A DNA stretch of 64,000 nt, taken from contig SADC01001323.1 in NCBI GenBank assembly GCA_004194705.1, forward strand, positions 372,001 to 436,000. Reading direction: 5' to 3'. Origin of the DNA: Ditylenchus dipsaci. Its lineage: Eukaryota; Nematoda; Chromadorea; Rhabditida; Anguinidae. Within the stretch, counting starts at the first letter, position 1, and every line of letters starts with the position of its first letter. The notes beneath the pieces are model-generated. The model worked only from the letters and a program-made list of their open reading frames with translations. It ran no database searches and was not told where the DNA came from. Position numbers and translations under genes: made by a program. Positions 2,375 to 64,000 of the stretch are shown one piece after another.

Positions 2375-2627
2375 TACCGTATTTCCTCTAATTAGCCGAC
2401 ACCCTCTAATAAACCGACACCCCAACTTTGAGGGTCCGTATCTCAGTCCACAGAAAAAAATTTACATCGTTGTCAATTGCGTTTTCTTAGCTCCTACGAG
2501 CTCTATCGATTCCGCTTTTTCGATTTTGGATCTTCACCCGAAAATGTCGAGATCGACTTAAAATTTTCACGACTTTTGAAGGGTTGAAAAATAAACCGAC
2601 ATGTCGGCTAATTAGAGGAAATACGGT
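2375..2627. repeat. ACCGTATTTCC inverted-repeat element, copy A (word CCGACA)
   Basis: About 253 bp, starting TACCGTATTTCCTCTAATTAG and ending with the inverted complement. The word CCGACA occurs twice inside the left end and once in the right end, where it is joined to its complement as CCGACATGTCGG. The middle contains TATCTCAG, ACGAGCTCTA and TTCACCCGAAAA segments that are shared with the copies at 14793, 34920 and 61417. It has no open frame and is therefore non-autonomous. Confidence 0.85.
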
Positions 2628-3173
2628 AGTTAACTGTGAAACTGTTAAGCAAAACAAACTGTTAAAAAGTTAATCAAAGGTTCATCTGCAACCACTTTAC
2701 ATTGCACATTGGTTGCAAAACACTGATTTTTGGATTATATTATTCTAAATAAAAATTTTATGTTCCTGACTCATTGAAGAGCACCTTAGCGAAAACAATA
2801 TTTTGAATGACTCCACCCTATTAGTTAAATTACAAACATAAACTTTTTTCAATCTGATGCGTAAACACTTGTGCTAACTCGTAGTGCTGCATGACTTCTT
2901 AGCCTTTTTCTTATAATTGCTGTCTTTTTATTCACAAACATTTGTTTTCTCGCTTGAAATATCTGATCTTCGGTCTTTTGCGCAAATTACTTGTCGAAGA
3001 CCATCTTTTTTGGTCTTTACATTCAGCAGTTTCAAAATATTTGGCGCTGTATTTTGATCTTTTATTAGGATATTATTATGTTTGTGTAACATCTTTTTCG
3101 CCAACTTTGCGGTGCTTAGTGCTGATCTTTAGGCTTATTACATCTTATTAGTAGCCAAAATGTTTAATTACGC

Positions 3174-3232
3174 TTACCGTATTTATTTAATAGAGTGGTA
3201 CGTCTAAGGAGAAAAAATGCACCTAATCGGTT
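3174..3232. repeat. Single end of the ACCGTATTT element family
   Basis: TTACCGTATTTATTTAATAGAG is the left terminus of the family, but no matching right terminus is visible within 1 kb. It could be a broken copy, or one half of an older element whose other end lies at 4494 inside the downstream gene. Confidence 0.5.
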
Positions 3233-3591
3233 GTTTTAATGTCGTTTCGGAGCCATATTTTAAAACTTGAAAAACTAGTGGTACAATGTATATTAAACTT
3301 ATGCATATTTGAAAGTTTCATTAGGAGCATCAACATCAGAATTACAAATTTCTTTAAAATTCCCTGAAAATTTAGTGCTGTAGATAGTAGGTCGATCTTC
3401 TGATTTTTCATCTTCTTCGAGTGTCTTTTTCTGTAAGAAAATTTTTGAAGAAATTTACCGATTCTGATATTGATGTTTCTAACCCAACTTTGAATTTTGC
3501 AAAAGTTTTGCTGTAAAGCAACACTGATTTGTTGACAAAGGAATAATTTTGAATAAACAACTGTAAACTAAGAAATAATCAATTGTATCTA

Positions 3592-3797
3592 CAGTCAACT
3601 CCCTCCATAGTGCACACCCAAGGGACCGGCGCCAGGTGTGCACTATGGCGAGGGGTGCACTATGGCGGGGGGTCACTATTGAGGAAATTTACTGTATGGT
3701 GGCCAAACACATCGGTACCGGGTGTGCACTATGGCGGGGGTGTGCACTATGGCGGGTGTACACTATGGCGGGTGTACACTATGGAGGGAGTTGACTG
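3592..3797. mobile_element. Pogo/Tigger-like MITE
   Basis: The terminal inverted repeats are CAGTCAACTCCCTCCATAG and its complement, flanked on both sides by TA, as expected for a Tc1/mariner-superfamily insertion (pogo/Tigger termini begin CAGT). The interior is built from five or more copies of a TGTGCACTATGGCGG unit. It is 206 bp and non-coding. A close relative lies at 61931-62066. Confidence 0.8.
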
Positions 3798-3891
3798 TAA
3801 CCTAAAATAGTTAACTCGCGCTGAATGTTGTATATTTGTGGTTGTCGAATGCGAGCTTGAGAATGTTAATATCTTAACTATTTTAGGCTCT

Positions 3892-6800
3892 ATGTCATCA
3901 GCAGACAAAAGTGCTGATCAAGAGACAGTAGCCAACCTATTTCCGCAGCACAACTTGCCACATTCATGAATAATCCACTATTTAACCACCACTCATTTGC
4001 TTACCTGCCTACAATAAACCCGACGAATTCGTCGCCTGCACCCATGTTTGGCCTAGATGAGGCAAGTGGTATCCCACTAGAGAAGCCAAACAACTTCTTT
4101 CTGGAAAATTTTATCAATCAAGCAAACATCAGCAATGCAACTGACCCATCTACATCTTCTTTGACTGCAACTTCTCATTTGTGTAAGTTTTTTGAATTAT
4201 TTTTATATGATTTTTATAATTTAAATAATTATAGTGAACAACGATCTAACAGAAAATGAAAGGGTTCATTCCACATCCACCCAAAACTCTTACAACTCAG
4301 AAGCCTGGCTGGAAGAGTCTAAAGATTTTCTTCTCCAAATAAGCCAAAAAAGAATGCTAAAGATGGAACCACTCCAATAACTTCACCTCAACCTGATGAT
4401 GATAACTTGACAATATGGTTGGTATTTACACTTATTTGTTAATTTGAACTGTAAAAAAGTAAAAAAAGGCTGACTATCAATGGGGCCGATAAAATACCGT
4501 ATTTATTTTAATAGAACGACAGCCTATAATAAAAGGCATAGTCGAGCCCAAAACTAGGGAAAAGGTAACCATGATTTTATCGACTCTTTTAAGAAATGGT
4601 GGTTAACAAGTCAATGTCATTGAGATAGACACGTCAGATAAAAGTTTAAAATAGTGATAAATCACCGTTGGCTCCATTTTAAAACTTTCGGATTTTTTAA
4701 CTTCGAAAATATTCTAAAGTTTTGAATAGTTGTTGAATTTAAAAATTGGATGTAAAACCCACATTGTATAAAAAATGTCTTCTCTTTTGTCCGACCTGGT
4801 AATATCAAGAGACATTGAATCGATTGTTAGAAATTAAAAAATGAATTAAAATAGCTGTAATAAAACAAGAAATAATTCAAAGAGTATTTTTGGAGTAAAG
4901 ACGCTGTGAAAGTTTGAAATTGCTATTGCAGTCAATGCCGATGATCTTTTAGCTAGAATTACAACATTTTCCATACCTGGTAACCAGCTTTAATTTTAAC
5001 ACTTTACATCTTGAAATAAGAAGGATATTTCACATTGGCTACTTCTGCTGTTTGCACCTCTCCCCTTTAATTTTTCTTAAAATTCGATAAAATTATTAAA
5101 AGAATCAGAGTTATGCAATTTATTTTTAACCAAAGTTAATTTTCAGCAATGTTTGCGGAGATGAAGCAAGTGGTCGGCACTATGGCGCTGCTACATGTAT
5201 TTATTTAATAATATTATATTCATCGGTTTTAAGCTGGAAAATTTTTAGGCTTTGGATGCAAAGGATTTTTCAGGAGAACGGTAAACTCTTAATAATATTA
5301 TTTTTAAGATGAATCTTTTTCGGAGAATCGACGTTATGTACCTTTTGCCCGATTCTAGAGCTACTCTTTGTTCGAACTTCTTAGGCCTTAGGCTTAGGGG
5401 TACGCCAGCGTATGTTAGGACGGACTAAGAAATGTCTTACTCGTTTTTTCCGGAGTAATCTGGGACTTGAACTAATATTTGGGTGTTTTTTTCATGAGGT
5501 TTCACAAAAAAAGAGATTTGGGACAAAATGGGACAAAAGGTACATAGCGTCAACACACCCTTTTTTCTGCCTTGTTTTTGGATCAAAAGTGCCTTGTTTT
5601 TTTTCTTAGTCAACGCGGAAAGTATATAAACCATTTTTTAAAGTTATACAACCATTAAGTAGCCCTGATCTTCTAGCTTCTAATGGCGTGTCATATGTTG
5701 CGACATCTTTGCAAAATAAAGTAGAAAAAAAATTAAAGAATGAAGCAAGTCGGAAAAAAATTTAAAATATTAAGTTCATATTTTTACCTTTTTGTGCTAA
5801 ATTTTTCAATTGTGTTGCAAGAAATGATACGCCATTAGAAACTAGAATAGCATGGCTACGTGATGGTGTTATAACTTTAGAAAATTTGTGCATGTACTTT
5901 ACGCTTTGACTATGAAAAAAAAACAAGACACTTTTGATCTAAAAACAAAACAGAAAAATTACTTATCTTTATTTTAACATTTTACCAAACGAGTACTTTA
6001 GGTGCGTGCAAACAAAACCTACTCCTGTCGATATGAGGAACGTTGTGAAATAGATAAAGGTAGTTATGCATCTTAAATTTACGTATAAAGATTAACTTTA
6101 GTTGGACGAAATATCTGTCGAGCATGCCGATTTCGCAAGTGTCTGAATGTTGGGATGGAACCTGACGGTAAATATGTTGCATTATTTCTGATTCCAGCTG
6201 TGGAAATTTAAAAAATGTTGCTGAGAAATATTTAGAAACTTCAAGGTTCTTACTGGTTTTACCTTTTAAATTTTTAGCGAAAATTAAGTGTTAAAAAATT
6301 CCGTTGTGAAAATGCCTGCTTGCTAAAAAATATGTCACCAAAAAGTGTAAATAATTTTTGGATTTCCTGAAAAATCCTGTAATCGTTTTCTGTTTTGGAA
6401 TTCTTAAACACACAGATGAAAAAATATGTTTTTACCTTTTTTTCAAAAAAATTCTTAGAAAATTTGAAAAACTCCCTGAAAGTCAATTAGAGTTAGCTGT
6501 AAGAACTAAAATATTTAACCGAAAACAGTACGAACTCAAGTAAAAAGTAAAAGACCTGTTAAAAGTAACATTACAGTAATTTAAACACTTTTAGCCATAA
6601 GACCAGACCGGGACAAGACAGGAAGACAGAAAAACCCACGCCGGATAAGTACCCTGTCCACAAATAGTCAAGAAAACGAGAAAAATGACCTGCTGCCTAA
6701 CTTCAAGTCTGACCCCGACGCAATGGACATTGCAACTAGTCAAGCCCAGGTCCCAGATACTAGTCAAGACCTGAGAAGTGAAGACTCAGCAGACAGCAGT

Positions 6801-8293: not shown

Positions 8294-8910
8294 CCAAAAT
8301 AACCAGATCTATTTGTATATAAACTGTAAAAATATTGTTAGCATATCCCCCATTAATATTTATCCCTTTGATGTGCAAAAAGATAGTGATATTCATTTCA
8401 AACTATATGTGTTTAGACTACTGCAAAAATCAGCTTAGTTTCCCAATGGGTTTCGCTTACATATTTCAAAAATTTGTTTAGTTAAGTTTATCACACCTTT
8501 TTTCAACTGACTAGGCTAAATATTTGAACTTTGTGCCTATATACCCTCTAATATAAGCTCTCCCTAAAAGTGACGAAAAATGTGCACAAAAGTCCTGGTC
8601 CCGAAATTTTAAAATTATAAAAATGCGTCCCAAAAATTTGTTGCCCGAATGTTTCGGTCCCAAAATTGGTATGGCAAAAAGTCCATAATGCGAAAAAGTC
8701 CATATGAGATAGCTAAAATAATATTTGTCAACTATTTCACAGTAAATTGTTTTTCAACTGCAATAACTTGTTTCAGAGTTTACTCTGTTTCACTATTTTA
8801 CAATTAGGCGTGGTCACATTTTTTGAAGTTGAGTCTAGTTTTTAAGCCTAGCTCACCTTTTTCACAAATAACTTCGGTAATTTTTCGCCATTGTCAATAC
8901 GATCAATATT
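8294..8910. other. Intergenic after the nuclear receptor
   Basis: AT-rich sequence downstream of the receptor stop codon. It probably includes the 3' untranslated region. No gene or clear repeat was recognised. Confidence 0.4.
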
Positions 8911-9040
8911 TACCGTATTTTCTGTATTAACTTCATACGGGGAGTCAACCCTTGAAAAATCTTGAAATTCTTAATCAAAATAGCCCTAACTCTGAAATCC
9001 TAGTAAAAACGAGGGGGGAGTTATTAGAGGGAATACGGTA
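8911..9040. repeat. ACCGTATTT element, short copy
   Basis: A 130-bp copy with left end TACCGTATTTTCTGTATTAAC and right end GTTATTAGAGGGAATACGGTA. It is internally deleted compared with the ~250-bp copies. The right-end word is GGGAG; GGGGAG also occurs in the left half. Confidence 0.7.
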
Positions 9041-9517
9041 TGCTATTTTTCCAGTGGTCTAAATGCATAAATTGACATTGTGTGTATAATTGAGCTGCTT
9101 GTCTCCGTAATCTTTCAATAATGTTGCTCCATTTGATCTTGGTGATGTCTTGCTATTATTCCCCATCAAAAATTCTTTCATTTTTAAGGCCAAACTTTGA
9201 AGAATGCTTTCCTTTGCTGTTGCAGTTTTATCAACATGCTAGCTCTCCTTGGTCTCATTTATTATTATTTTGCTTTGGTATCTTTGTTGTCAAACCACCC
9301 GGTGACTTTCGTTTTCAACCCGATGTTGTTGTATATAACTTGGTGTAAATAATTGTCCTGTTTGTGGTCTTCTTGCCTGCATATAACCTTCGCTAGTTCA
9401 TACACACATATATAAACTATATATATACATATATATGCAGATTGAAATGCTAAATAAATACTCTTAATTACTATAAACATCTTTGCCACAAGTCAGTGTA
9501 TGCAAAATTAAATACTA

Positions 9518-10446: not shown

Positions 10447-10494
10447 TTTTCTGGCAATAAATTTTTCTCGCTGACAATATTTTTCGGTATATAA

Positions 10495-11664: not shown

Positions 11665-13192
11665 ATGTTTTCCATCGCGGGAAAAATTTCTGGTCTTCTG
11701 ATGAGCTGTGCATACTTCTACTACTGAGCATGTTTTAACTTGAAAATTTAAATTTTTACCTAGTTTTTGTTAATTTTAGTAATTCCTGTGATAGATGCTG
11801 CCTTGAGCAGGTCAAAACGACAAACTTATCACTATCCAGATGTATGTATCAGGATTAAAAACTATTTTATTTGTATAATAAAAAATTACAGGAGCTCAGA
11901 AAATATGCACACACACATCCTAATACAAAAATAATTCATGGTATGGTTATTTGCTGAAATTTAACGTAAAAGTTCTGATCTTCTTATATAGTAGATTTAT
12001 TGCAAAAATACTGTTTATTATACATATAAATAAATTATACACGCAAATTTTTATAACGAAAATGTTATTTCGATATTTGACTCAATTTTGTTTTGAGCTT
12101 CTACATAGATACTAGAAAACTGAACATACCGTAAATCCTCTAATTGAAGCCCATGGGCTTGAATTGAAACACACAAATCTCAAAGCTGTTGTGCCATGCT
12201 ATTTTTAAAACATTGGCGCTACCGGAGTATACCCCCTCCCAAATGGAATTTTTAAAAAAGTGTTTCCAAACACCCTATATCGACTCAAAATCGCCTCAGG
12301 AACTCGAAAAAGCCATTATTTTTGAGTTTTGGTCAATAAAAAATCGAGTTTTGGGACCACCCAAAGTTACTTTTTTTGACTATTTTTAAAGGGACTTAGG
12401 CTGTTTTGGGTGGTAAGGGACCAAAGAGAGGCCAATTTGTTCCAAAAAGGAAGATGTTGAACATAGTTTTGTTGACTGGGGCCTACCGCATAAATAAACT
12501 CAGGTATGCATGCTTTTTCATGCATCCAGAGTCACTTTCGAGTGATTGGTGTCTAAGGTATGTGGGTGTGCGCATCTCAACCCCAAGCCCCCTGCGCCCC
12601 GAAATGGGGGGGGGAGTATACTCGGGTAGGGTCAAAAAATTCAATATTTTTAGGCGCATGACCACTCAAATTTAGCTAACACGGGAAAAGCACGACCACC
12701 CCGTCACGTATCAAAGAACTTTATTTACCAAAAGATAGCTCTTTTTGAGCTGACTATGAAACCACTCGCAAAATCTGCTACGCGCTAAGCTGCACCGAGA
12801 TATTGGCTTTTTAAAAATAAACATTTTTGATCTACGTTATATTGTACACTAGCACTAATGATCAACGGGTATAAGAAACAGGGCTATTTTTGAGTGGTCA
12901 CGCGCCTAAAAATGTTCAATTTTTCATATATAAAAACACAATGCCACAAACAGCTTGGGAGTTGTGTCTCTTAATTCAAGCCCATGGGCTTCAATTAAAA
13001 AATTTACCGTAATATTTGTTTTAAGGCACGGTTGGAAGATACGCACCTCAAGAGTATCCTGCTTGGTAAATAATATTGTTGATTGAAATTTAAAAGAATA
13101 TTAAATCAAGTAATTGCTCTTATATCTTTTTTAGGTACACACGAACACTTTTTAAGTGGAATGGAGAATCTAGGTTAAAACATACATTTTAA
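11665..13192 (+). CDS. Small five-exon gene; possible secreted peptide precursor or small membrane protein
   Basis: Exons: 11665-~11725, 11780-11841, 11892-11940, 13026-13065, 13135-13192. Phases of the last four fit, with canonical GT..AG borders. They give roughly 90 residues: a hydrophobic start (MFSIAGKISGLLMSCAYFYY), IPVIDAALSRSKRQTYHYP, then a polar region through PDELRKYAHTHPN and a C-terminus ending in SRLKHTF. RSKR matches a furin-type convertase site after a signal-like segment, so a processed secreted peptide is possible; a single-pass membrane protein is an alternative. The family is not recognised. The exon 1 donor is not canonical (TAC TAC T followed by GAGC), suggesting a sequence error or a different first exon. 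Intron 3 (1.1 kb) is filled by nested repeats from 12128 to 13013. Confidence 0.5.
12217..12631. mobile_element. MITE with CTACCGGAGTATACCCC termini
   Basis: The inverted ends are GCTACCGGAGTATACCCCC and the complement near 12610. The interior holds TAAACTCAGGTATGCATGC and TCACTTTCGAGTGAT segments that recur at 24777, 29794, 34560 and 42900. Apparent open frames inside belong to the repeat and are not genes. Confidence 0.75.
12639..12925. repeat. Palindrome TTCAATATTTTTAGGCGC...
   Basis: The left arm contains TTTTTAGGCGCATGACCACT and the right arm the complement AGTGGTCACGCGCCTAAAAA. The arms are about 35 bp and enclose about 220 bp. This looks like another non-autonomous inverted-repeat insertion next to the element ending at 12631. 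Confidence 0.6.
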
Positions 13193-14792: not shown

Positions 14793-15041
14793 TACCGTAT
14801 TCTCTCTATTAATTCCACACTCTCTATTAAACCCACACCCCCAAACTTTGAAGACCTGTATCTCAGCTCAGAGAAAAAGTTTAACAAAGTTTTTTTTGCA
14901 TTTTCTTAACTCCCACGAGCTCTACCGATTCTGTTTTTGGATTTTGAATCTTCACCCGAAAATCTCAAGATCGACCCCAAAATTTCCGATTTTTGGACGA
15001 TTGAAAAATAATCCCACATGTGGAACTAATAGAGAGAATAC
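14793..15041. repeat. ACCGTATTCTC element, copy B (word CCACA)
   Basis: About 249 bp, left end TACCGTATTCTCTCTATTAA, right end CTAATAGAGAGAATAC. The left end has TTCCACAC and ACCCACACCCC; the right end has CCCACATGTGGAAC. The core is clearly similar to copy A (ACGAGCTCTACCGATTCTG, TCTTCACCCGAAAATC). Confidence 0.85.
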
Positions 15042-15896: not shown

Positions 15897-16088
15897 TACC
15901 GTATTCTCTCTAATAGAGTGGTATGCCGCTCTACTTTTCAGCCTCCAAAAAAATGTTTGACTTAACTTTACAAATGCAATAAAAAAATTTTTAACATCCC
16001 CCCCCCTAGTTTTGGCCTGAACCCCTGCCGCTCTATTAGAGAATGCCGTTCAAATGGAGAGTGCCACTCTATTAGAAATAACACGGTA
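15897..16088. repeat. ACCGTATTCTC element, copy C (word GAGTGG/CCGCTC)
   Basis: About 192 bp from TACCGTATTCTCTCTAATAG to AACACGGTA. The left end reads GAGTGGTATGCCGCTC and the right end TGCCGCTC...TGCCACTC. The word differs from all other copies but is again shared by both ends of this copy. Confidence 0.75.
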
Positions 16089-26016: not shown

Positions 26017-27438
26017 TACCGTATTTCCTCTAATAGAGTTCTTATTTTTCTCTTATTTTTTGACTACCCTCCAGAGGGGGGCTGTATTAGGAGGGGGGCT
26101 CTAATAGAGAGATGGGCTTTATTTTTCACCTCCCGAATTTTCTAGCTTTGACGAAAATTTTGATGATCATTATCTAAACAAAAACTTTTTTGGCCTTATC
26201 AATAGCATACAATGCACGTCAATTATGGTATAACGACGATTCGATACAGCGGGAGGTTTATTCAACAGACGGCAAATTCAAAAAGCGGATAATTCAACAG
26301 TGGATAATTCAACAGCCGGATTATTCAAAAACCGGATAATTCAACAGTGGATTATTCAACAGTCGGAGTCTTCGTCAATAATTGTTTTAACACACTTTTT
26401 GACAACGTATCGAGCTGATTTTTGTCAGGATCAATAGAAATAGCCGAGAGGAACTGATCCTGACAAAAATCAGCTCGATACGTTGTCAAAAAGTGGGTGA
26501 AAACAATTATTGACGAACAATCCACTGTTGAATTATCCGGTTTTTGAATAATTCGGCTGTTGAATAAACCCCCCGCCTTCGATACACATTGTGATTCGAT
26601 ACTGCGATTCGATACAGTGCCAAATATTGCCTTGGTTCTCCCTGTTGATTTTTTTCAACTTTTTGTGATTTATCAAATTTTTACGCACTTAGGCAAAGCC
26701 TTAGGCTCAGTGTAGGCCAGCGCCCGTTAGGACGGACTCAAACGTGTGGTTTAAACAAAGTGTAGTTTAAACATAAAAAATGTATCGAATCACAATGTGT
26801 ATCAAATCGTATGCCAGTCGTCAATTATACATAAAACTTGAATCTCCTATATTGTATTAGAGATGTTTCGTTGTTTGTCCACTTTTGATGTTTTGGTTTT
26901 TCAAAGATGTTTTAATTTGATTTTTTGGTCAATTTTTTTTAAATTGAAGCTTGGAATCTCAGCAGTAGATTGGTTGTTTCGGATTGCGCCGGCTTGGCGT
27001 TGAAAATTGTCGTCGTAAAAACTTTGGTTTTCGGAGCTACAAAAACTCTGAGATTCGTGAAAAGGATGTTTGTGGGCGATAGTTTGGCCTGTTCTATAGA
27101 AGTTATTTTAAAGTTTTATAACTTTTGAATAGCTCTGAATGGGCAGGTGTGCACTATGTATTTTTTTTCTGAAATTTTGAAAAAGAGGTATTTCTAGTTA
27201 TTAGAGACTTTTTGATGTTTTGCGTGAGTATATTTTTTGCATAAAAAAATTTGCATTCTAATTAAGTTTTTATTAAAAATTTCTAAAAAGGCATGTTATT
27301 GAGCCTCTTCCGAAAATGGGGTGGGGCTCTATTAGAGGCGGGGCTTTATTTTTACACTACTCACCAGAGGGGGCTCTATTAGGAGGTGGGGGGGGGTCTC
27401 TAATAGGAGGGGGGGGCTTAATTAGAGGAAATACGGTA
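26017..27438. repeat. ACCGTATTTCC element, copy D (word GGGGGCT), with nested palindromes
   Basis: Left end TACCGTATTTCCTCTAATAG, right end TTAGAGGAAATACGGTA, enlarged to 1.4 kb by insertions. Both ends carry multiple GGGGGCT(C/G)TATTAG and GGGGGGCTCTAATAG units. An insertion at about 26215-26825 has GATTCGATAC repeats in inverted orientation and itself holds a palindrome at 26249-26577. Confidence 0.75.
26249..26577. repeat. Palindrome of GGATAATTCAACAG units
   Basis: The left arm holds about five units of the type GGATAATTCAACAG; the right arm carries two or three inverted ones. The arms also share ACGTATCGAGCTGATTTTTG and its complement around a ~24-bp centre. It starts GCGGGAGGTTTATTCAAC and ends with the complement. 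Non-coding. Confidence 0.75.
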
Positions 27439-34919: not shown

Positions 34920-35168
34920 TACCGTATTTTTTTATTATTTACCCGGGAACAATTATTTTTCGACTCCTAAAAATAAAAAAAAAATATTTTGAGATTTTCG
35001 GGTGCTTAACCAAAATACAGTAAGTAGAATCAACTAAGATCGTTGTGATTAAGATATCGCAAAAAACCGATTTGCAAAAGAAATTTTTTCAGTTGAGATA
35101 TAGGGTACCAAGGGAGGTAACTATTAGAGAGGGAGTAATTTAGAGGGAGAAATAGAGAAAATACGGTA
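34920..35168. repeat. ACCGTATTT element, copy E (word GGGAG), reverse orientation
   Basis: 249 bp from TACCGTATTTTTTTATTATT to GAGAAAATACGGTA. The core is the reverse complement of copies A, B and F (GAGATTTTCGGGTG, GTTGAGATATAGGG). The right end carries GGGAGGTAA, GGGAGTAA and GGGAGAAA. Confidence 0.75.
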
Positions 35169-41078: not shown

Positions 41079-41216
41079 CCAATTTCGATTATACGTGATT
41101 GTGCTTAAAAGGAAGCCAAGATGTTGAACTTGAGGGTTCCGCAGAGATATTTGACATTAATCGGCAAAAACTGGCCAAAAATTGGGTTTGAACCGGAACA
41201 TCCACCTTAAATCCAC

Positions 41217-41760
41217 ACCTGAGAAACCAATGAGTTTTGAGCTTGTCCGGGCAGTTCAAACCCGTTCACTTTTCAAAATCCACTGTTAAATAGCTCATTT
41301 TGTAGCTGAGATTCTTTTGTTTTCACCATTATAAACATCAACACTGACTTTCTCTATAAAAGTGGCTCAAAATTGTGTCTGAAGTTAAAAATAGGAAAAC
41401 TCCACCTAAAAAGCAACTGACTTGAGAGCTTGTCCGTACCAGTTCGAGACCTTACACTCTTCTAACATCACTGGTTAATAACTCATTTTGTAGCTGAGAT
41501 TCTTCAGTTTTCACCATCATGAAACATAAACACCGACTTTCTCTATAAAAGTGGCTCAGAATTGGGTCTGAAGTTAAAAAATAGGAAAAAGTACACCTAA
41601 AAAACCACTGAGTTGAGAGCTTGTCCGGACCAGTTCGACCCCTAAAACCTTTCAAAATCCACTGTTCAATAGCTCATTTTGTAGCTGAGATTCTCTAGTT
41701 TTCACCATTATAAAACATCAACACCGACTTTCTTTATAAAGGTGGCTCAAAATTTGATAA
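41217..41760 (+). repeat. Tandem repeat of ~186 bp, three copies
   Basis: Each unit includes GAGCTTGTCCGG, CATTTTGTAGCTGAGATTC, TTTCACCAT(T/C)AT and GACTTTCT(C/T)TATAAA(A/G)GTGG. Units begin near 41217, 41399 and 41594. Divergence between units is about 5-10 percent by eye. Confidence 0.8.
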
Positions 41761-48749: not shown

Positions 48750-48998
48750 TACCGTAAATTTTATAATTATGAGACATGTTCGATAACTTTTCAACTCCTT
48801 ACTTGTTAGAAAAATTTGGGTCGATCTCTAGATTTCTGAGCTCTCAACCAAAATCTAAAAAGCAGAATCGGTAAAGCTCTTGGAATATGTGAAAAAACCA
48901 AAAAAAACAGATTTGCAGAGCACTGATTAAAGGCTGAGATTATATGACCTCAAAAATGCATAATAAAAAATGCTCTATAATTAAAAAATTTACGGTAA
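48750..48998. repeat. ACCGTAAATT element, copy I, reverse orientation
   Basis: 249 bp from TTACCGTAAATTTTATAATT to AATTAAAAAATTTACGGTAA. The core shows GGTCGATCTCTAGATTTCTG and AGAATCGGTAAAGCTCTTGG, the reverse complement of the copy A core. The word is less clear (ATGAGACATG left, AATGCTC right). Confidence 0.7.
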
Positions 48999-53839: not shown

Positions 53840-54475
53840 GGGTGGTCGTGTCAGCTGTGGCTGAATCAATTGGTTGGATCAGTACAATTGTATTGATTTA
53901 GCTGGTTGAATTGGTTCAGTTCAATTGTATTGATCCAATTGGTTGAATCAGTCCAGTTGTATTGATCCATCTGGTTGAATTGGTTCAGCTGGTTGAATCA
54001 ATTCAGTTGGATGGTTCAGTCCAGTTGGATTGGTTCAGCTGGTTGAATCAATCCAATTGATTGGATCAGTCCAATTGTACTGTTTCAGCTGGTTGGATTA
54101 GTTCATCTGGTTGAATCAATTCACTTGGATGGATCAGTCCAGTTGTATTGATCCATCTGGTTGAATTGATTCAGCTGGTTGAATCAATTCAGTTGGATGG
54201 ATCAGTCCAGTTGTATTGATCCATCTGGTTGAATTGATTCAGCTGGTTAAATCAATTCAGTTGGATGGATCAGTCCAGTTGTATTGATCCATCTGGTTGA
54301 ATTGATTCAGCTGGTTGAATCAATTCAGTTGGATGGATCAGTCAAATTGCATTCATCCACCTGGTTGAATTGATTCAGCTGGTTAAATCAATTCAGTTGG
54401 ATGGATCAGTCCAGTTGTATTGATCCATCTGGTTGAATTGATTCAGCTGGTTGAATCAGTCCAATTGATTGGAGT
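53840..54475 (+). repeat. ~68-bp tandem repeat in Helitron 1
   Basis: Units built from the phrases CAGTTGGATGGATCAGTCC, AGTTGTATTGATCCATCTGG and TTGAATTGATTCAGCTGG follow each other about six times, after a less regular start made of shorter 13-15 nt steps. Confidence 0.85.
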
Positions 54476-54619
54476 CAACCATTCACAATAAAGCAAGGAG
54501 CGCGAAGCGCTCCTCCTTCCAGTGCATTATGCCTTTGCATTTGGCTCTAAAGATGTCAGTCCTTATTTATTTATCCTTACTATCCACAGTTGAAGCTGCA
54601 ACCTTCACTGCCTATTGCA

Positions 54620-55420
54620 GTCAGTATGCAATGGTATCTGCGAAAATCAAAATGGCCACAGTTGGGGCTGCAAGCCTCATTCCCTACTGTATTTGGTATG
54701 CAATGGTATCTGCAAAAATCAAAATGGCCACAGTTGGGGCTGCAAGCCTCATTCCCTACTGCATTTGGTATGCAATGGTATCTGCAAAAATCAAAATGGC
54801 CACAGTTGGGGCTGCAAGCCTCATTCCTACTGTATTTGGTATGCAATGGTATCCGCAAAAATCGAAGCGGCCACAGTTCGGGCTGCAAGCCTCATTCCCT
54901 ACTGTATTTGGTATGCAATGGTATCCGCAAAAATCGAAGCGGCCACAGTTCGGGCTGCAAGCCTCATTCCCTACTGCATTTGGTATGCAATGGTATCTGC
55001 AAAAATCAAAATGGCCACAGTTGGGGCTGCAAGCCTCATTCCCTACTGCATTTGGTATGCAATGGTATCTGCAAAAATCAAAATGGCCACAGTTGGGGCC
55101 CAAGCCTCATTCCCTACTGTATTTGGTATGCAATGGTATCCGCAAAAATCAAAATGGCCACAGTTGGGGCTGCAGGCTCATTCCTCACTGCATTTGGTAT
55201 GCAATGGTATCTGCAATAATCAAAATGGCCACAGTTGGGTGCTGCAGGCCTCATTCCCTACTGCATTTGGTATGCAATGGTATCCGCAAAAATCAAAATG
55301 GCCACAGTTGGGGCTGCAAGCCTCATTCCCTACTGCATTTGGTATGCAATGGTATCCGCAAAAATCAAAATGGCCACAGTTGGGACCGCAAGCTTTATTT
55401 TCTACTGCAGTTGATATGCG
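54620..55420 (+). repeat. 72-bp tandem repeat in Helitron 1, about 11 copies
   Basis: Each unit contains GGTATGCAATGGTATC(T/C)GC, AAAATC(A/G)AA, GGCCACAGTTGGGGCTGC and CCTCATTCCCTACTG. Since 72 is a multiple of three and the unit has few stops, long frames (up to 346 codons) open in several phases; they are not evidence of a gene. Confidence 0.9.
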
Positions 55421-55496
55421 AGTTTATCTGCAAAAAACAATATTTATACGCATGCAGAGGTAAGGCGCGCGGAGCGCGCCGGCCCCCTGGGGCTAG

Positions 55497-57756
55497 TCAT
55501 ATATACTAAAAGAGAGTTGTCTGTATGTTTGTCCGCACGATTTTAAAAAAGGTCTCAAAATTGTCGTTTGAAAGTTGGTCTCGAGAGGAGTCTTTTGAAG
55601 CGAGAGTTTTGTCGTATGCTCATTATTATTTATTGAGTATGTTGAGCAGTTGGCTCTCTCAGATAATTTTGTGCTCGAGTCTCATGTTTTTCATTTGGTT
55701 TTGTGAATCATCCAGATACTAAGATTGAATTTTTTATTCTCGAATAAACATTTGGACTCGAGTCTTTTCAAATAATTTTGAATATTTATTGATTCAAATA
55801 TGATTCATGCTGCAGTCCAAGTGGTTCAATAATGGTAAATACTTAAAGTGCTTAGCCTGTACTATGGTTCATGATTGAGTCTCAAGTTGAAGAGTAACTA
55901 AGTCAAGGTATCAGAGGGTGAGACTGTGATTCATCATGCAGTCTTATTGCAGTTATTATTATCATTTTGTTTTGACTCTTTTTCATGCATTTTTTTTGTT
56001 ATTGTAAATTACATTTGTCATGATTCAAGTATGTATCATGGTCGCAAAGTTTGGACTGCAGTGTGGACGAGAATCGGGCTTTGAGAGTATACTGGGCGAT
56101 CCCGTAGGTCTTGCATTCTCATCAATGAATGTTTCTCATTCATCTCTTCAGGTCTCTGCTCTATGGATTAGTCGTGAAGTTCGGGCCGCAGTGTGTACAA
56201 GAATTGTGCTTTGAGAGTATACTGGAAGATCCGGTAAGTTGTGCATTCTTATCAATAAGTGTTTCTCATTCATCTCTTCAGGTTTTCGCTGTATGAATTA
56301 GTCGCGAAGTTCGGCCGCAGTGTGTACAAGAATTGTGCTTTGAGAGTATACTGGAAGATCCGGTAAGTTGTGCATTCTTATCAATGAATGTTTAAAACTT
56401 CTAAAGAAAACTTCTAAGTGGTGAATAAAAGTACTATAGTATTCTGTTCATGGTAAAGTCTCAAATTCATTCCATTATTTCTATTCAATCTATTAATACA
56501 ATCGCTAATTCATTTCTTCAATCGTGAGCTATGCATAAAGCTTAAATGAAACTTTTATCTGTGATTGGTCGGTACATTTTTCTTCAAGTCATGTTCTCTA
56601 ATCAGTCAATTCTGAAACGTATCGGATAATATGACTTGATGATGAACTTACAGTACATTCTGAGAAGCATTTGATTTCGAGTCTATCTCACATCTAATAA
56701 ATGTGAAGATCCGAAGTTTGTAGGGAAGGATTGAATGACGAATGTATAAATTTCACGGTCGACTCACATGTTTTTTAATATCTGAGATGCTTGGACTGGG
56801 ATTCATTGAGTCTCAAATTAAATGCAAAAGTAGTCAAGTCACTTGAGATGAATCAATACTCAAGATGTGATCTTATTTGGTATATATCAGTAATTATTGC
56901 AAGTGTTTCGATCTTCTCATTTAGTGACTCAAGAGTGTGTCACATGCCATGTGTGTGAAGTCTATTCTATCGTGGACATGCGTTGTGTATAAGGGTTCAG
57001 AACTTACATATCATTGATTGAATTTCGATTTAGTGAGTCGAATACTTTGATTTAGTGAGTCGAATACCAAAAGACGAATACTTTTATAAATCATTCACGT
57101 GAAAAATATGTCTTCGTGAATCTCAACACACACGTCTGAAAAATTTTGGAAAATGTTATGGTACTGTGCGTCTATGAAAGGAATGAAAAAGCTCTTTTAG
57201 GAATTCCTGATTGGAGCTCACGGCTCATGTTTCGGTCGCACGAACTATTTTTAAATTTTTTGTTGTCCATGGCTAATGTTTGTGCCTCATGTGTCGAAGT
57301 GCATGTCTGTGACTCTCATTTAATGTGTCAAGTCTCATGTTTTCATATTTCTTAGCTCATGTACTATACCTTTTGTACTGTGGATTATGCGTATAGCTTT
57401 AATTTACATGTATATTGGAAAAGGTCAAAAAGACAGAAACTCTCTTTTTATGAATCTCACAACAGGAAGATCGCATTCATGAATCTCTTAAAACAAAATA
57501 GACGCTTTTTTTGAATCGCAGAAAAGAGAAAAAAAGCTTTTGTGAATCTCAAAAAATGTTTTTTCAGTCGTGTGAATAATAATAAAGTAATTAAGAGTGA
57601 CTATATGTGATTGCATTTTGCTCAGATTCATAGATCTTAAAATCATCGAAAAATAAATTGGATAATGCTACAGAAATATCAGCTGAAAATAACCCGAAAA
57701 ATGTTTGAAAATATCAGCAGAAAACAAAACCCGCCCGTAGGGCGGGCAAGCGCTAG
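55497..57756 (+). mobile_element. Helitron-type element 2, directly behind element 1
   Basis: It starts at the base after the CTAG of element 1: TCATATATACTAAAAGAGAG, then TTGTCTGTATGTTTGTCCG, like the 5' end of element 1. It ends with hairpin CCCGCCC-GTA-GGGCGGG (57730-57746) and CTAG (57753-57756). Inside is a triplicated ~130-bp unit at 56041-56385. 2260 bp, non-autonomous. Confidence 0.85.
56041..56385 (+). repeat. ~130-bp unit, three copies, in Helitron 2
   Basis: Each unit begins GTCG(C/T)(A/G)AAGTT(T/C)GG and includes TTTGAGAGTATACTGG and TCATCTCTTCAGGT. Units start near 56041, 56171 and 56301; the third is incomplete. Confidence 0.8.
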
Positions 57757-57763
57757 TCATAAG

Positions 57764-59726
57764 TATAAGATAAGGTGTTTTTAAAGCGAGTAAGTGAGAT
57801 AGCTCACAGTCGGTTTTTTCGGCCTTACCCGGTTTTCGGCTAACTGACCCAGAACTACAGTCGATTCTTTAGTCGGAATCGAGCTTGAAGTCAATTCAGT
57901 ATATAAAGACTCTAAAACCTAAAGTCGAAAAAAATGCGACCAAAAGACATGCTTTTAGAATGCTTTGTCCGGTTAATTAATGTTTTTTTATCAAAAGGGT
58001 AGAGAAATAAATGTCATATATACACACACACTTACTCTAGACCTAGCCTTTCCTAGCTATTTCTGCCTGTGTGTTCACTACACTCATGCAAGCATTTCAA
58101 AAGAGGGAGGAAGATATATGTTACACGACCACATCACTGGCTTTGCAGTTTTATAACAACACAATCTTTATTTATATTTTATATTGCTAAACATTTTTTT
58201 GTTTTGTGGCGATATTTGTTAGAAAAAAAAGAGTATTACTAGGTCTTTTGCAAATTTTGTGCGACCCAGATAAGTTGTTTTTGGGTGAGCTAACTTTCCC
58301 TTTTCTCACTCGTTTGCTTGAGCCGCAAATTAAACAAATATAGGAGAAAACATTTGGCTTGATTGACCCAATCTACTCTTGTTGACATTAGCATGACAAA
58401 AAGATAATCAATTGCCCGTCACTCGTTTTATTTTGTTTGCTCAAAGAGATGAGTTTTTTTGTTATCAAAAATAACCTGTACAGTTTTTGTAGTGCTAAGA
58501 CTACACTTGGCAGTCTCCAAACTAGGTGATGATCATCAAAAAATAGTTACTTTTAGTCAAAGTATAAAAATCTCTGAAGGCATTTGCATTTTGGAGACTG
58601 TAAAATGTTTTCTGAGTGCCGCATTTCGACAAACGGTTTTTTTTGTAATCTTCTTAGAAAAAATAAACAGTCGAGTCTGCTCATGGTAGACAAGTATAGT
58701 AGTATCATTTTCCCACTCCCTTGGGAGGCCACTATGAGGAGACTCGAATGTATATTTTATTAGATGTATAATATTTCAAACACAATTTTTTCTTGGTCTC
58801 CCAGTAGTTTGGACCAGACCATCTGGTGTGGTAAGGTCAAAACCACACGGAAAACAATCGTAAATCGCATTTCGAACATGCCAAATAAAACATGCTCCTT
58901 CTAAAATGATTGTGAAAAAGCCCTTTGCCAAAATAGCCTAGAACAAAGCCAGTTCACTTGAAATGGTTATGTTTCTCGAGACACGTTGTAGATTATAATC
59001 ACAATTATCATTTTACCAAATTTTCTTCAAAATAATTTTAACAAGCACATATATTTTGTATCATTTAAAAAATAATCTAAAAACGCAATTTTGTTGCCTG
59101 TTCAAAACATTACTTTTCTTTATCTAAATGGCAAGCTGCGCCCTAGTCTTTTGCCGTTTCGCCATAGCACTCTCTCTAATTATGCAAGTACCATCTGTTT
59201 TGTGTTGTACAACCAGGACAATGAACTTTTATAAAAGTTGAACAAACGAATTTGGCCAAAACACTCACATCGTCTTTTGATGCGCCACTTTGAAACTAAA
59301 TTTAACATATTTTTATTCTCATTTTGAGTGTCCTGAATGAATAATTGATACCCACTTGTCCCTCTTCCTCTTTTTTCTCGTGACAGATGAGTCAGCCGTG
59401 GTATATAGGTGTTTTGCATGCAAAGAGTGGCCAAACAATGGGTTATTGGTCGAGTGGGAAAAGCGAAACATTCCCTTACAACACCTTCACTCTTTTGTCC
59501 CTGTCATGTTTTGTTTCTCGCGCTTAACCAAAAGAGAAATTTGAAGTTTTCTTACGATTTTTGGCCAAAAAAAGATATCCAGTCATTTTTTCCATGTTGT
59601 TTTATGTTCACGTGTATGTAACGCGTTTTACTTGATTTTATTTTGAACTTTTTAAGATTTCCCGTGCTTGTTTAACAAAGAAGAAGTGCCATTGTTGTGG
59701 TCGCTGATCGAAAAGTGGCAGAGCTG
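57764..59726. other. Intergenic, includes upstream region of the ABCA-type gene
   Basis: AT-rich. A TTGGTCTCCCAGTAGTTTGG / CCACACGGAAAAC fragment at 58785-58870 is related to the repeat at 10495. An open frame at 59356-59544 has no support. The last 100 bases are probably 5' untranslated sequence. Confidence 0.4.
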
Positions 59727-60345
59727 ATGGGCTTTCTTTCGCAAGTATGCCTGCTGCTGCAAAAAGAACTGTTGGTGATAAAAAGAAGTAAAATATGGTT
59801 CCTCTGCGAGTTCGCACTTGGCTTCCTAGTCTTTTTGATGATTTACTTGGTGTTGACGGTCAGTTGTTTTAGCTGGATTACCAGCAAATTTATATTGGGG
59901 TCTTTAACCAATTTATAAACAATTTTAGCTGGGAAGTGAAGGAGCTAAAGGTAATTCTTACTCGTTCGAAGGCGTGCATATCACTGGCGATGTTGACGAT
60001 TTGGAAAGGGAGGTGCACAATATTCAGTCAATCCATAAAAGATGCTGTCTCAAATTTCCCGATAGAGTATTAGCGTACTCGTAAGCTTTTATTTACATTT
60101 TTGTGAAAATGGGTTTAAGCGTGGTATTTAGGTCAGAAGACACCATACTTGGCAGACATATCATGCAAATTTTGGAGGAGAAGTATAATGAGACATTTAT
60201 AGTCAAGGAGTTTCAAAGTCTGAAGAAAATGGAAAAATCACTAAAGAGGGTAATTATGGTTGATTATATGAAATATTGCATCTTTTAGAGAAAAAGCAAA
60301 CGAAATAGACAAAGACTGGCGAAATCGCAAAGTTGTGTTGGGTTT
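59727..60345 (+). CDS. ABC transporter, ABCA type, 5' end (incomplete)
   Basis: Exons: 59727-59858, 59929-60080, 60132-60249 and the start of one at about 60289. Exon 1 is a typical ABCA N-terminus: LLLQKELLVIKRSKIWFLCE followed by the first membrane segment FALGFLVFLMIYLVLT. The following exons (EGVHITGDVDDLEREVHN, HKRCCLKFPDRV, DTILGRHIMQILEEKYNET) would form the start of the first extracellular domain. The fourth exon, ending in KVVLGFLG, needs one G fewer at 60248-60250. The nucleotide-binding domains are not in the window; a MITE at 60352 follows, and no later exon was recognised to the window end. Family members move lipids across membranes. Either the gene continues beyond the window through long introns or it is truncated. 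Confidence 0.6.
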
Positions 60346-60351
60346 TCTAGG

Positions 60352-60606
60352 ACGTATTGACAAGACTATGTGCTTTGACAACTTGATGGGTTTCATATAA
60401 TTTTGATTTATATAAATAATTTAAAATTGTTTGATGGGTTCCAAAATTCAAATTACAGAAGGAAAGTTTGTAATTCGAAACCCATCAAACAATTTAGCTA
60501 CGTTAATCTTTGTGAAATTTCTACTCTGCAACCCCGCAATTTTCAAATTTTTTTATAAATCAAAACTTTGAAACCCGTCAAAGTTTCGAACCACAAAGTC
60601 TTGTTA
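60352..60606. mobile_element. Palindromic MITE with CAAGACT...ACCCATCAA units
   Basis: The ends CAAGACTATGTG and CACAAAGTCTTG are inverted. TTTGATGGGTT and its complement AACCCATCAAA occur several times inside. About 255 bp, next to the last recognised ABCA exon. Confidence 0.65.
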
Positions 60607-61202
60607 AAGGGGCATGGCCACCAGGGCTGTAAAATTTTTATTTTTGACATCCTACATCCACATCCGGCTAAAAACATCCACATCCGACATCCGACCTAAA
60701 ATTTTTTGCTTCAAAATGGCCATAAGCGCTGGATAAACTGGCTCTTTTTGACGAAAAATGACTAAATTGTACTTTTTTGAACAAATGTACTTTTTTCCAA
60801 AAAAATTCATTCCCATCCCTGTATTTTATCCAGTGCTTATTGCTCTTTTGGTGCTGAAAAATAAGATTTTGACATTAAATTTTGAAAATTAATAAGATTT
60901 GGAGACCAAAACAAGGACAAATCTAATTAATAATATATGTACGTTTGAGTGCCCTGAATAATTATAGATTGTCCAAAAACGCACAACTGGACAAAAATAA
61001 TGTTGTGTTTATTAGAAGCTGCTGCCGGAAAGAAATATAAAATATAAACCACACTTTAAGACGTCTTTGTGATCTTATTTCTTGGAAATTTTCAACGTAA
61101 AGAACTTTTCTTGGCACTTTTTCACATCTTACACTTAATGCCCACTTATATTTGCTGTTTTTAGAGGTTGACATTACTAAGTGTAAAAATATAGCTACAA
61201 TG
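60607..61202. repeat. Dispersed repeat AAGGGGCATGGCC...TATCCAGTGCTTATTGCTC
   Basis: TTAAAGGGGCATGGCC at 60604 resembles a TTAA-type element end. It is followed by GGGCTGTAAAA, TATCCAGTGCTTATTGCTC and AGGACAAAT segments shared with 18740-18900 and 30490-30640. 60962-61202 has no recognised content. Confidence 0.45.
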
Positions 61203-61330
61203 ATCACGTTTTGCCGAAATTTTCGCCTTTTTACTATCAGATTTATCCTCTTTCTTGGTCAGCTCGCCTTTTTTCTTCTTGCAATTAGGCAAGTCACCGT
61301 GATGAAACTTAGTAGGTAGTCTTCATACCC
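61203..61330 (-). CDS. Possible coding fragment, lysine-rich, unknown
   Basis: On the minus strand GKLPTKFHHGDLPNCKKKKG-like and GELTKKEDKSDSKKAKISAK codons run without stop for about 45 residues, then to a stop at about 61165. The segment just upstream (DRKPEDGYEDY) is in another frame. It could be part of a small nuclear protein. Only composition supports it. Confidence 0.2.
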
Positions 61331-61416
61331 ATCCTCAGGCTTCCTGTCTTTAAAAATTATTTTAGTTTTGAAAAAAAACGATGTTTACTAGCCCAGTGGT
61401 CCCCTCTATAATAAGT

Positions 61417-61667
61417 TACCGTATTACCTCTAATAGCTCCCCTGCTCTAATAACTCCCCCCCTTAACTTTGAGGACCTATATCTCAACCCAGAAATTTTT
61501 TTTGGCAAAGCTATTTTATGCGTTTTCTTAACTCCCACGAGCTCTACCGATTCCGCTTTTTCAATTTTAAATTTTCACCTAAAAATCTTGAGATCGACCT
61601 CAAATTTTTCCGATTTTTGGGCATCCAAAAAATAACTCCCCCGGGAGCTATTAGAGGAAATACGGTA
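61417..61667. repeat. ACCGTATTACC element, copy F (word CTCCC)
   Basis: 251 bp, left end TTACCGTATTACCTCTAATAG, right end CTATTAGAGGAAATACGGTA. Left words AGCTCCCC and AACTCCCCCC; right words AACTCCCCCGGGAGCT. The core is nearly the same as in copies A and B. Confidence 0.85.
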
Positions 61668-61872
61668 TTAGGTTTTCTGATCCATTCTGTAGTATCTAGA
61701 AACTAAGGCGATCTGATATAGGTGGTACATTGCTATTCATTGGGTAGTCCCTACACCGCTAGGTTAGGCGAATTGGAGGAGAAGACATCAGAGCAGTAAG
61801 AAAATACAAAAATGATGGATTTTTAGACAAAAAGCAGGATACGTAGGTGTAGTATTATAATTTAGCTCGAAA

Positions 61873-62091
61873 ATGTCTGAAAATCTGGCAGTTTTGTCGG
61901 ATGATTACGAGCCTGTGGATCATTTTGATACAGTCAACTGCCTCCATAGTGCACACCTGGTTCCGATGTGGTTGGCCACCACACAGTCAACTCCCTCATA
62001 GTAACCCCGCGCATAGTGCACACCTGGGGCCGGTCCTCGGGTGTGTACTATGGAGGGAGTCGACTGTACCAAAATCGAAAAACGTGAATGA
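61873..62091 (+). pseudogene. Short frame interrupted by a pogo-like MITE
   Basis: ATG 61873 opens a protein-like frame (SENLAVLSDDYEPVDHFD) that runs into the MITE at 61931. If the MITE and one TA copy are left out, the frame continues for a few codons (TKIEKRE) to TGA at 62089-62091. It may be an exon of an unrecognised gene or a chance frame. Confidence 0.25.
61931..62066. mobile_element. Pogo/Tigger-like MITE
   Basis: 136 bp with inverted ends CAGTCAACTGCCTCCATAG and CTATGGAGGGAGTCGACTG between TA dinucleotides. The ATAGTGCACACCTGG unit is the same word as in the element at 3592-3797. Confidence 0.8.
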
Positions 62092-62222
62092 AGAGAAGAA
62101 TGTCCAAGCTTAATAATCTGATCGGTTTTCAATAAGTTTATTCGAGCAAAACAGACGACTAATTGAACCAGCGCAGTCCTAATAACATCAAAGAAAAAAC
62201 GATTACTACGTCCGAATTTTCT

Positions 62223-62430
62223 TCAGTTGTGCATTCTCAAAATTGAATTCCGGCAATCAAGATCGAGCACAGCAAAGTATTCCTCAAGTGCTGCTCCACC
62301 TTGGCAATGACCGCAAAGAATGATGAGGAAATGGGAAGTCCTGAGCTTTCGGTCGGATCGCCGCGCTCTGCAGATGATTGAATTCAGCGCTAAGGCTAAC
62401 CAGCGTGCTCCTCGGAAAATACACTATTCT
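62223..62430 (-). CDS. Possible coding region, unknown
   Basis: The composition is richer in GC than the surroundings. A minus-strand frame of about 68 codons (with RTSHFLIILCGHCQGGAALE and YFAVLDLDCRNSILRMHN) ends in TGA at 62225-62223. A second overlapping minus frame (62284-62481) is also open. One of them may be an exon, but I cannot tell which, and no family is recognised. Confidence 0.25.
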
Positions 62431-62672
62431 GAACATGTAATCGCAATAGATGTGATATAAATAAATGACTCTAAAATGCAATAACGCACCTGCAAAGTAA
62501 CACCTGATACTTCTCTCCTGGTTTCGGTCGTATACTTGACGCCAACTACTGACCTAAATTCCTAGAACTTAACTAGACTATACGGGATTACAATCGAAAA
62601 GTATTACGTACGAAACAATGGTCGACTTGTATTGATCGGCTTGCTAATTGTATATCTTGAAGATGGCAAATC

Positions 62673-62992
62673 CTAGGAGGTCTTCTTTGAGCCAGCTTTG
62701 TCAGCTTCAATCCTGAAAACAACAAGCTAAAAATTACTTGCAAAATGCAATAAAGACAAACGATAGCTTACGAAGAGAATCGAGAAGTTTGATGAAGCTC
62801 GGATCATCTTTTTGTAAAATCGCCTTCATCCAGTCAGATGTCGAAACAGCCACGGTATTGCTTGCTCTTCCAGGCAACAAGTTCATCACACTCAGGATTG
62901 AAAGTTTCCTAAAAAAGCAAGTAAGTTAACATAAAAACATCAGAAAGTTACCTTGGTCTTGTAGATTGCTTGGTCGCTGGACTATCACTCAT
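62673..62992 (-). CDS. Small three-exon gene, unknown
   Basis: Minus-strand exons 62992-62952, 62908-62772 and 62712-62673 have canonical borders. The product starts MSDSPATKQSTRPR, continues KLSILSVMNLLPG, then SDWMKAILQKDDPSFIKLLD, and would end IEADKAGSKKTS after a one-base correction at the last junction. Without it the last exon reads in another frame to a stop near 62588. About 73 residues, hydrophilic, no signal or membrane segment. Its start lies 50 bp from an ACCGTATT element. Confidence 0.42.
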
Positions 62993-63189
62993 TGCGAACA
63001 CTTTAAATACGATAAATATTGCTTGGTCAACACCAAAAAAAGTATACCGTATTCTCTCTAATAGAACCACACTCTCTATTTGAACCACACTCTCTAATAG
63101 AACCACACCCCCCCCCCCAAGGGAGTTGTGGAATAGAACCACACTCTCTATTAGAACCACCCTCTCTAATAGAACCACACCCTTAAGAC

Positions 63190-63475
63190 CCTCAAGCTGC
63201 GCCAACGGCCGTCTAACTCCAATGGATTGTCGAAGCCTGCGAGAATCTCTTGTAGGAGCTCATCGTTGAGTCAATCAAATCATGCGGAGTCCCAATGCCA
63301 CCGATGGATGTTGGGGCGAAGCCACTTACTGCTTCAAGAAAATTCGGCCGATTCCGAGTGGTCAAGGCAAGTTGAAGCTCGCGCAAGATGAGAAGAAGTT
63401 GGCTGAGCAGATACAAGAAATCGATCTTGAGGAAGCGCAAGAAAATTTAATTATAGTGATAAAGATATATCTCTA
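63190..63475. other. Coding-like segment inside copy G
   Basis: The GC content is clearly higher than in the flanks. A plus-strand frame (KLKLAQDEKKLAEQIQEIDL) and a minus-strand frame (NFLEAVSGFAPTSIGGIGTP) are both open for over 60 codons. It may be a captured gene fragment or part of a small gene whose introns received the element. Confidence 0.35.
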
Positions 63476-63493
63476 GAGTGTTAATGAGTTTTG

Positions 63494-63738
63494 GGACCTG
63501 CTCTGGTTTAGGGGGACGCCTACTTTTACTATATGTATTTTATTTTTTAGGTTGATCGAGTTGATTATGGTGGCCGGGGTGACAATAATAGTGACAACCG
63601 GGGTGACAACAATAATAACAACAAAATTACTTATTAAATATTCATATAGGTCATCAATATAACCATGACTGCCATGAGCGACAAAAATAAATAAAAAGTA
63701 TAGTATAAATGAGCGTCCCCCTAAACCCAAGCAGGTCC
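63494..63738. mobile_element. TIR element GGACCTGCTCTGGTTTAGGG
   Basis: 245 bp with ~40-bp inverted ends: GGACCTGCT(C/T)(T/G)GG, TTTAGGGGGACGC, ACTATA and the complements. Inside, GGTTGTC/GTGACAACCGGGGTGACAA is a short tandem. Superfamily not assigned. Confidence 0.75.
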
Positions 63739-64000
63739 GAAATAAAGAATTTATGCGCGTATGCTGCAAAGCTTGAATATATTCAGAAGGTTGAAAAATA
63801 GAACCACACTCTCTATTTGAACCACACTCTCTAATAGAACCACACCCCCCAAGGGGGGTTGAAAAATAGAACCACATGTGGTTCTATTAGAGAGAATACG
63901 GTACATTAGCCCTTCTATATAGTATAGCCCTCGATATGATGCGTGTTTATACGGTCCCCAGGAGCTAAACTATATGGAGGGTTGACTATAGGGCACCACA

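Follow-up and report, generated by a model that had tools for sequence, protein, structure and literature searches.

A variable word matched between the two ends of Passer-like elements in Ditylenchus dipsaci and its probable role as a transposase binding site

A stretch of 64,000 nucleotides of the nematode Ditylenchus dipsaci (positions 372,001 to 436,000, forward strand, of contig SADC01001323.1, assembly GCA_004194705.1), called here the window, contains a family of inverted-repeat elements whose ends raise a question. A preliminary description of this DNA had claimed that each copy carries a private word, the same at both of its ends and different from one copy to the next, and had interpreted this pattern as copying between the ends or as selection for matched ends. 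How can a short sequence differ between copies and agree within each of them?

The ends of the elements exhibit a two-part structure. The order of the blocks at an end is CCGTATTTCC-CTCTAATA-word, where the word is a variable stretch of about 6 nt placed directly behind a constant step (CTCTAATA, or AAAAATA deeper inside), and it comes back beside more CTCTAATA or AAAAATA steps. On its left side a typical copy reads CCGTATTTC, then CTCTAATA and the word, frequently with one or more additional CTCTAATA-plus-word units at a spacing of about 18 nt; the second left unit is often missing in copies with the core sequence called core B. On the right side, the core is followed by TTGAAAAATA (or CATCCAAAAAATA) and the word, which abuts the complement of the word and TATTAGAGGAAATACGG. 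All the word sites share one orientation apart from the final site of the right end, and this inverted site produces the palindromes of word and complement (CCGACATGTCGG) noted in the preliminary description. The exact inverted repeat, for example in the copy at 63045, is about 25 bp long with more direct sites behind it, which fits the terminal inverted repeat (TIR) of 40 bp or less given for most pogo families in the part of the literature available. TA was present on both sides in 33 of the 34 two-ended elements presented below, with a search pattern that began with TA and so favoured it.

Within the window, the claim of a private word at both ends held for three copies. The core-A MITE at 2375..2628 (+ strand), with TA at both borders, has CCGACA at four of four sites: the outer-left word at 2396..2401 (+), the inner-left word 18 nt deeper at 2414..2419 (+) and the right-end palindrome CCGACA-TGTCGG at 2596..2607 (+), in which the inner-right word abuts the complement of the outer-right word. 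The core-A MITE at 61417..61667 (+) has CTCCC at four of four sites, and the element at 63045..63903 (+), with the terminus variant CCGTATTCTC, shows the word GAACCAC at six listed direct sites and at the right end. This last copy contains at 63294..63374 (+) a remnant resembling the C-terminal part of the transposase of L052, the coding copy described below (tblastn E 2.1e-4, 48% over 27 aa), and is probably a deletion derivative of a transposase-coding copy. Two copies came close: the core-A MITE at 14793..15041 (+), with the word (C/T)CCACA, the terminus variant CCGTATTCTC and a decayed right border, has near-identical words only (TTCCACA, ACCCACA, TCCCACA and TTCCACA), and the short element at 15897..16088 (-) has GAGTGG/GAACGG/GAGCGG plus CA. 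The match is tentative in the element at 12127..13011 (-), with the word GAAGCCC and its right-end palindrome at the 12128 side, for which a candidate partner end at 12986-13011 has GAAGCCC again and 4 substitutions in 26 nt. One outer site has decayed in each of two further copies: the 1.4-kb element at 26017..27438 (-), where AGCCC(C) stands at most sites and the outer-right site, at 26017, is decayed and reads GAGTTCTT, and the core-B MITE at 8911..9040 (-), with CTCCC at the left and inner right and a decayed outer-right word. The claim failed for the core-A MITE at 34920..35168 (-), whose left word CTCCC faces GTTCCC/TTACCC at the right, and for the old core-A copy at 48750..48997 (-), whose decayed words are likewise unmatched. 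The core that had been proposed as common to the copies at 2375, 14793, 61417, 34920 (reversed) and 48750 (reversed) was recovered in all five, with nhmmer E values of 1.1e-45, 9.2e-39, 1.3e-46, 4e-18 and 1.4e-19, respectively, using a core-A model built from nine copies, 2375 and 61417 among them.

The variant tip CCGTATTCTC is common to the copy at 14793 (core A) and the copy at 63045 (not core A), both with CCACA-type words, and the tip of the element may vary with the word; the same tip is found on the element at 15897 (GAGCGG) and on C1:112686 (AGCGCCCC), against a linkage of tip and word. The window contains also a tandem array of period 72 with about 12 copies at 54584-55440, inside 54469-55509, a region in which each forward frame is open (346, 222 and 289 aa from stop to stop), and two more tandem arrays, at 53888-54473 (periods 68/136) and 41215-41754 (period 191). 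It showed no Rfam match at the gathering score, and no tRNA genes were found in it. A host exon had its best protein match, at 40% identity, in the nematode Onchocerca flexuosa; other hits were fish proteins named ALKBH4.

The abundance of the ends was compared with chance. Ten mononucleotide shuffles of the window gave 0-2 places within three mismatches of CCGTATTTCCTCTAATA, where the window itself has 15, and CTCTAATAG at no more than one mismatch gave 41 matches against 12.1 expected. The exact 19-mer ACCGTATTTCCTCTAATAG occurs 1,472 times (745 + 727) in the 227-Mb genome (1,359 contigs), and the same pattern read backwards had no occurrence across the 227 Mb. Chance or an assembly artefact was rejected on these end counts, the shuffles, the reversed control and the word permutations that follow.

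The matching of the words was measured on 34 elements with both ends recognisable, taken from the window, from 200 kb of contig C1, from 23 loci (L004-L030 less L005, L008, L011 and L021, which overlap others; L001-L003 were dropped because they are located inside C1) and from L051 and L052. The left and right 8-nt words of these 34 elements, a few of which are close relatives of one another, have an identity of 0.816 within copies and 0.446 between copies, a within-copy value reached by none of 20,000 permutations. Identical left and right 8-mers were found in 7/34 comparisons within copies and 3/1,122 between. The result was similar inside single core families: 0.806 within and 0.455 between in the core-A family (15 copies scored at 6 of the 8 word positions; 0/50,000 permutations), and 0.806 and 0.460 in core B (nine copies; 0/20,000 permutations). 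A first core-A set of six copies was weaker, with 0.750 within, 0.533 between and 430 of 20,000 permutations. The core-A table comprises 15 of 20 nhmmer rows, leaving out W48807, L019, C1:7844, C1:171313 and L014:1045, the other half of a split copy; its words were entered by hand, as were the bases before the word in the ten multi-site elements compared below. The matched-word pattern is thus confirmed genome-wide and far beyond chance, with the exceptions given above among the copies first described.

Two core-A loci are interrupted. At L014 711-1135, a second core-A element has apparently inserted into a core-A copy and split it (nested insertion), and at C1:69896-72401 (L037-L038) a core-A MITE with the word TTACCC contains some 2 kb of other DNA, itself bounded by near-perfect inverted repeats, with GGGGTTTCAAAACTCGAATTTGTGTTCAGT on the left side.

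Matched ends could simply be the mark of old lineages that diverged equally in word and core, the word being under no particular selection. Core and word similarity are indeed correlated, strongly in the first six core-A copies (r 0.85, 51/5,000 permutations), and with r 0.27 (375/5,000) in the nine core-B copies and weakly (Mantel r 0.33, 700/20,000) in 13 of the 15 core-A copies (without L014:711 and W34967). However, in the 78 pairs of these 13 copies, which are not independent, the mean identity was 0.71 for the cores and 0.45 for the words, where drift at the core rate would give an expected word identity of 0.71, and the words were below the cores in 73 of the 78 pairs. Good agreement was seen only at a core identity above 0.85, where the word identity was 0.84 (two pairs); at a core identity of 0.75-0.80 it was 0.41 (12 pairs). 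The same words were found, moreover, on different cores: CTCCC and GGCGGCC each on A and B, families whose hits showed zero overlap, and GCGCCCC on core C and on the coding copy L054. The preliminary description had held that a few subfamilies with cores differing in parallel would mean ordinary subfamily structure; the parallel exists as a correlation, but the words lie well below the cores, and this reading, weakened by the core-A comparison, is in our opinion quite unlikely.

The words thus change more rapidly than the intervening DNA and yet remain matched within a copy. From this it follows that the cores have been repeatedly re-addressed, and the presence of one word on several cores makes of the core a passenger able to carry different addresses. 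Copies with mixed words, C1:146584 (CTCACC outside left, CTCCCC inside), C1:22620 (three words) and L014:1320, look like intermediates or decay.

We then considered the protein encoded by the longer copies. L052 (C8:189300-191700), 2.28 kb long, bears (G/A)AGCCAC(C) as its word at seven listed same-sense sites, at both ends. Separate exons of this copy match BrkDBD (E 4.7e-9) and HTH_Tnp_Tc5 (E 1.7e-6), and a weak DDE_1 match (E 3.5e-4, 20.6 bits, below the 22-bit cut-off) is split by exons and a frame break. The gene is interrupted by introns and apparently by at least one frame break, and the sequence was left unmended. The BrkDBD Pfam match was obtained in five of five DNA-binding domains (DBDs), with HTH_Tnp_Tc5 examined in L052 alone. 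The DBD profile matched the Brinker structure 2glo with an E value of 1.6e-4; a PDB search with one DBD alone gave no match at E 1, and Foldseek gave no match at E 0.001, with Brinker absent from the best 50 matches listed. The L052 DBD exon had one match in the protein database. In the genome, 181 DDE_1 matches were counted, independently of any tie to these ends, and remnants resembling the L052 transposase were found in L012, L013, L051 and the 63045 copy of the window. The short copy L018 (252 bp) and the coding copy L056 on C20 have a common 39-nt right end, AATAACTCACCCGGGTGAGCTATTAGAGGAAATACGGTA. The short non-coding copies, which share their ends with coding copies, are MITEs, and judged by their domain set the elements look like pogo-superfamily DNA transposons of Passer-like type together with their non-autonomous derivatives. 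A further 2.4-kb copy, L051 (C17:124880-127400), has long inverted repeats inside, and only C-terminal pieces of transposase were found in it; its outer words read GGAGCAC and its inner words AGCGCAC, with the same difference at both ends.

The words are linked to the transposase lineages. Four lineages with both word and helix sequence available, whose DBDs are 51-62% identical to one another, have four words and four recognition helices: AGCCACC with DRSTVIDW (L052), AGCGCCC with DRKRVKDW (L054), CTCACCC with NRSTVRQW (L055) and AAGCCCC with DRKNIREW (L057). The helices differ between the invariant residues R56 and W62, and positions 57, 58, 60 and 61 have a mean identity of 0.22 against 0.58 for the whole domain, with positions 50, 64 and 67 of the DBD as variable as these. 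L052 and L055 both have S57-T58 but different words, with CACC present in both. A DBD exon lies no more than about 500 bp inward of nine of the 34 AGAGCCACC ends, in each case one of the L052 clade (86-100% identity). Six of 34 GGCGCCCC ends have a DBD exon inside, five of the L054 clade (88-100%) and one not; the exception, C254:21642-24432, has GGCGCCCC at both ends and a DBD with only 57% identity to that of L054, and its word is either shared with that lineage or convergent. None of 39 CTCACC ends has a DBD exon within about 500 bp, although one of them forms the distal end of the L055 copy, at a distance of about 2 kb. The L057 copy carries GAAGCCCC in its own sequence, and no DBD exon was found just inside GAAGCCCC among 100 of 201 places listed. 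Altogether 16 of 17 pairings of word and transposase were in accord, copies by descent included. These counts, from place lists compared by hand, are lower bounds (the best 150 of 383-481 DBD candidates were scored), and since copies inherit ends and enzyme by descent they are not independent, so that the weight of the linkage is that of about four lineages. Such a linkage is expected of any transposon family.

These results suggest that the word is probably the binding site of the Brinker-type HTH, and that the match of the two ends comes from the need of a single transposase to bind each of them. Each end would be a row of two-part sites, a constant step with a directly following variable word of about 6 nt, read by a transposase with two HTH domains: the Brinker-type HTH would read the word, and the second HTH (Tc5/CENP-B type) or the catalytic complex would read the constant step and the CCGTATTTCC tip. 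If the element moves only when one transposase binds both ends, the word must match across the sites within a copy, and if the transposase lineages read different words, the words will differ between copies. A MITE core with a new word at all its sites could be moved by another lineage, so the words would turn over faster than the cores. The concerted change may proceed site by site, by short conversion tracts or by the swap of a whole end with another lineage, which would run through the shared step sequence. Selection for matched ends, one of the two interpretations first offered, finds support in a word that lies beside repeated steps and is linked to a lineage with its own Brinker-type DNA-binding domain, and it is the better-supported half of that interpretation.

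The other half, copying between ends, would make the words agree whatever the transposase reads, through gene conversion, or through a template switch during gap repair at the hairpin of the right end. The palindrome of word and complement, found at the right end in most copies, offers such a hairpin, the four to eight listed word sites of each long element are mostly alike, and mixed copies exist (C1:146584 and C1:22620). Right ends of the type CTC[A/C]CC, of which 115 were found, had a matched palindrome in 16 of 16 cases among the matches listed, but the search pattern was able to find only pairs differing at one position. In 8 of 10 multi-site elements, on the other hand, the base before the word is not the same at the outer site as at one or more of the inner sites, and in 5 of 10 it sets the outer site apart from every listed inner site, so that a conversion tract sparing this base would need to be about the size of the word. 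This speaks against the copying of blocks. The outermost two words of L051, and likewise those of L013, agree with one another but not with most of the words inside. Very short tracts may have acted, as may conversion limited to the pair of outer sites. Copying between ends leaves moreover the linkage of word and lineage unexplained, and we hold it to be unlikely as the source of the pattern. An arms race with small-RNA or other sequence-specific silencing, in which both targeted ends change to escape the host, would account for fast concerted change of a short motif beside steps that change little; however, the constant steps and tips are equally exposed and change little, and the linkage of word and lineage is not predicted, which makes this explanation highly improbable.

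The elements were finally set against known systems. Transposases of the Passer family, in the pogo superfamily (IS630-Tc1-mariner), have the two DNA-binding motifs seen in L052, BrkDBD and HTH_Tnp_Tc5, and a DDE-type catalytic domain, to which the weak DDE_1 match of L052 may correspond, and Passer elements have a TA duplication and a short exact TIR, according to the available text of PMC7386202. In contrast, the ends of the longer copies add here several two-part sites with a lineage-specific word behind the TIR of about 25 bp, and a word palindrome at the right end, sites that are not mentioned in the available text of that paper. Galileo, a Foldback-type element of Drosophila, has also internally repeated ends, which were proposed as secondary transposase sites, and its subfamilies exchange sequences, with copies in which both TIRs of one subfamily surround the internal region of another (PMC3573991, in the part available); this exchange is a point in favour of exchange of ends as a route here. 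Galileo, however, belongs to the P superfamily and has long TIRs and 7-bp duplications, whereas the D. dipsaci elements have units of about 18 nt, constant and variable, and a pogo-type transposase. Membership in the Foldback/Galileo group was rejected on the pogo-type domains, the TA borders and the word sites, which keep a single orientation at both ends apart from the last. Like other MITEs, the short copies are non-coding, flanked by TA and high in copy number, with ends as in coding copies, but here one core (A) has at least eight clearly different end words in 15 tabulated copies. The Drosophila repressor Brinker, whose HTH is homologous, binds GGCGYY (PMC3738585, in the part available), and the complement of this target, RRCGCC, fits the word AGCGCC on the other strand; in contrast to Brinker, the HTH belongs here to a transposase, and the genome has no fewer than 150 exons resembling the L052 DBD (the best 150 of 383 candidates scored). 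A literature search with the exact end sequence ACCGTATTTCC gave no related topic by its listing (one C. elegans F-box paper). Family-specific end words were not described in the titles and abstract beginnings of the open-licence literature on subterminal-repeat homogenisation, BrkDBD transposases, nematode pogo elements, transposase/TIR co-evolution, cross-mobilisation, MITE switching, Galileo and Passer. Taken by domains and ends, the family looks like a radiation of Passer-like pogo elements whose ends comprise several two-part sites.

Such a radiation could constitute a natural address code, in which many lineages each have a Brinker-type helix reading a different word, repeated four to eight times or more in each long element, and MITE cores change their address at all sites in concert, a broader proposal that we advance only tentatively. 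The pairs of helix and word, S57-T58 with CACC and K57 with CCCC, suggest on four lineages that they may be readable as a recognition code. If true, D. dipsaci would offer a ready-made set of DNA-binding domains paired with target words for the study of how HTH specificity evolves, and it would open to testing the question of how an enzyme and its numerous scattered binding sites can shift specificity in concert, and of how MITEs pass from one master to another. The value of the family would lie in this readable pairing of DNA-binding domains with words.
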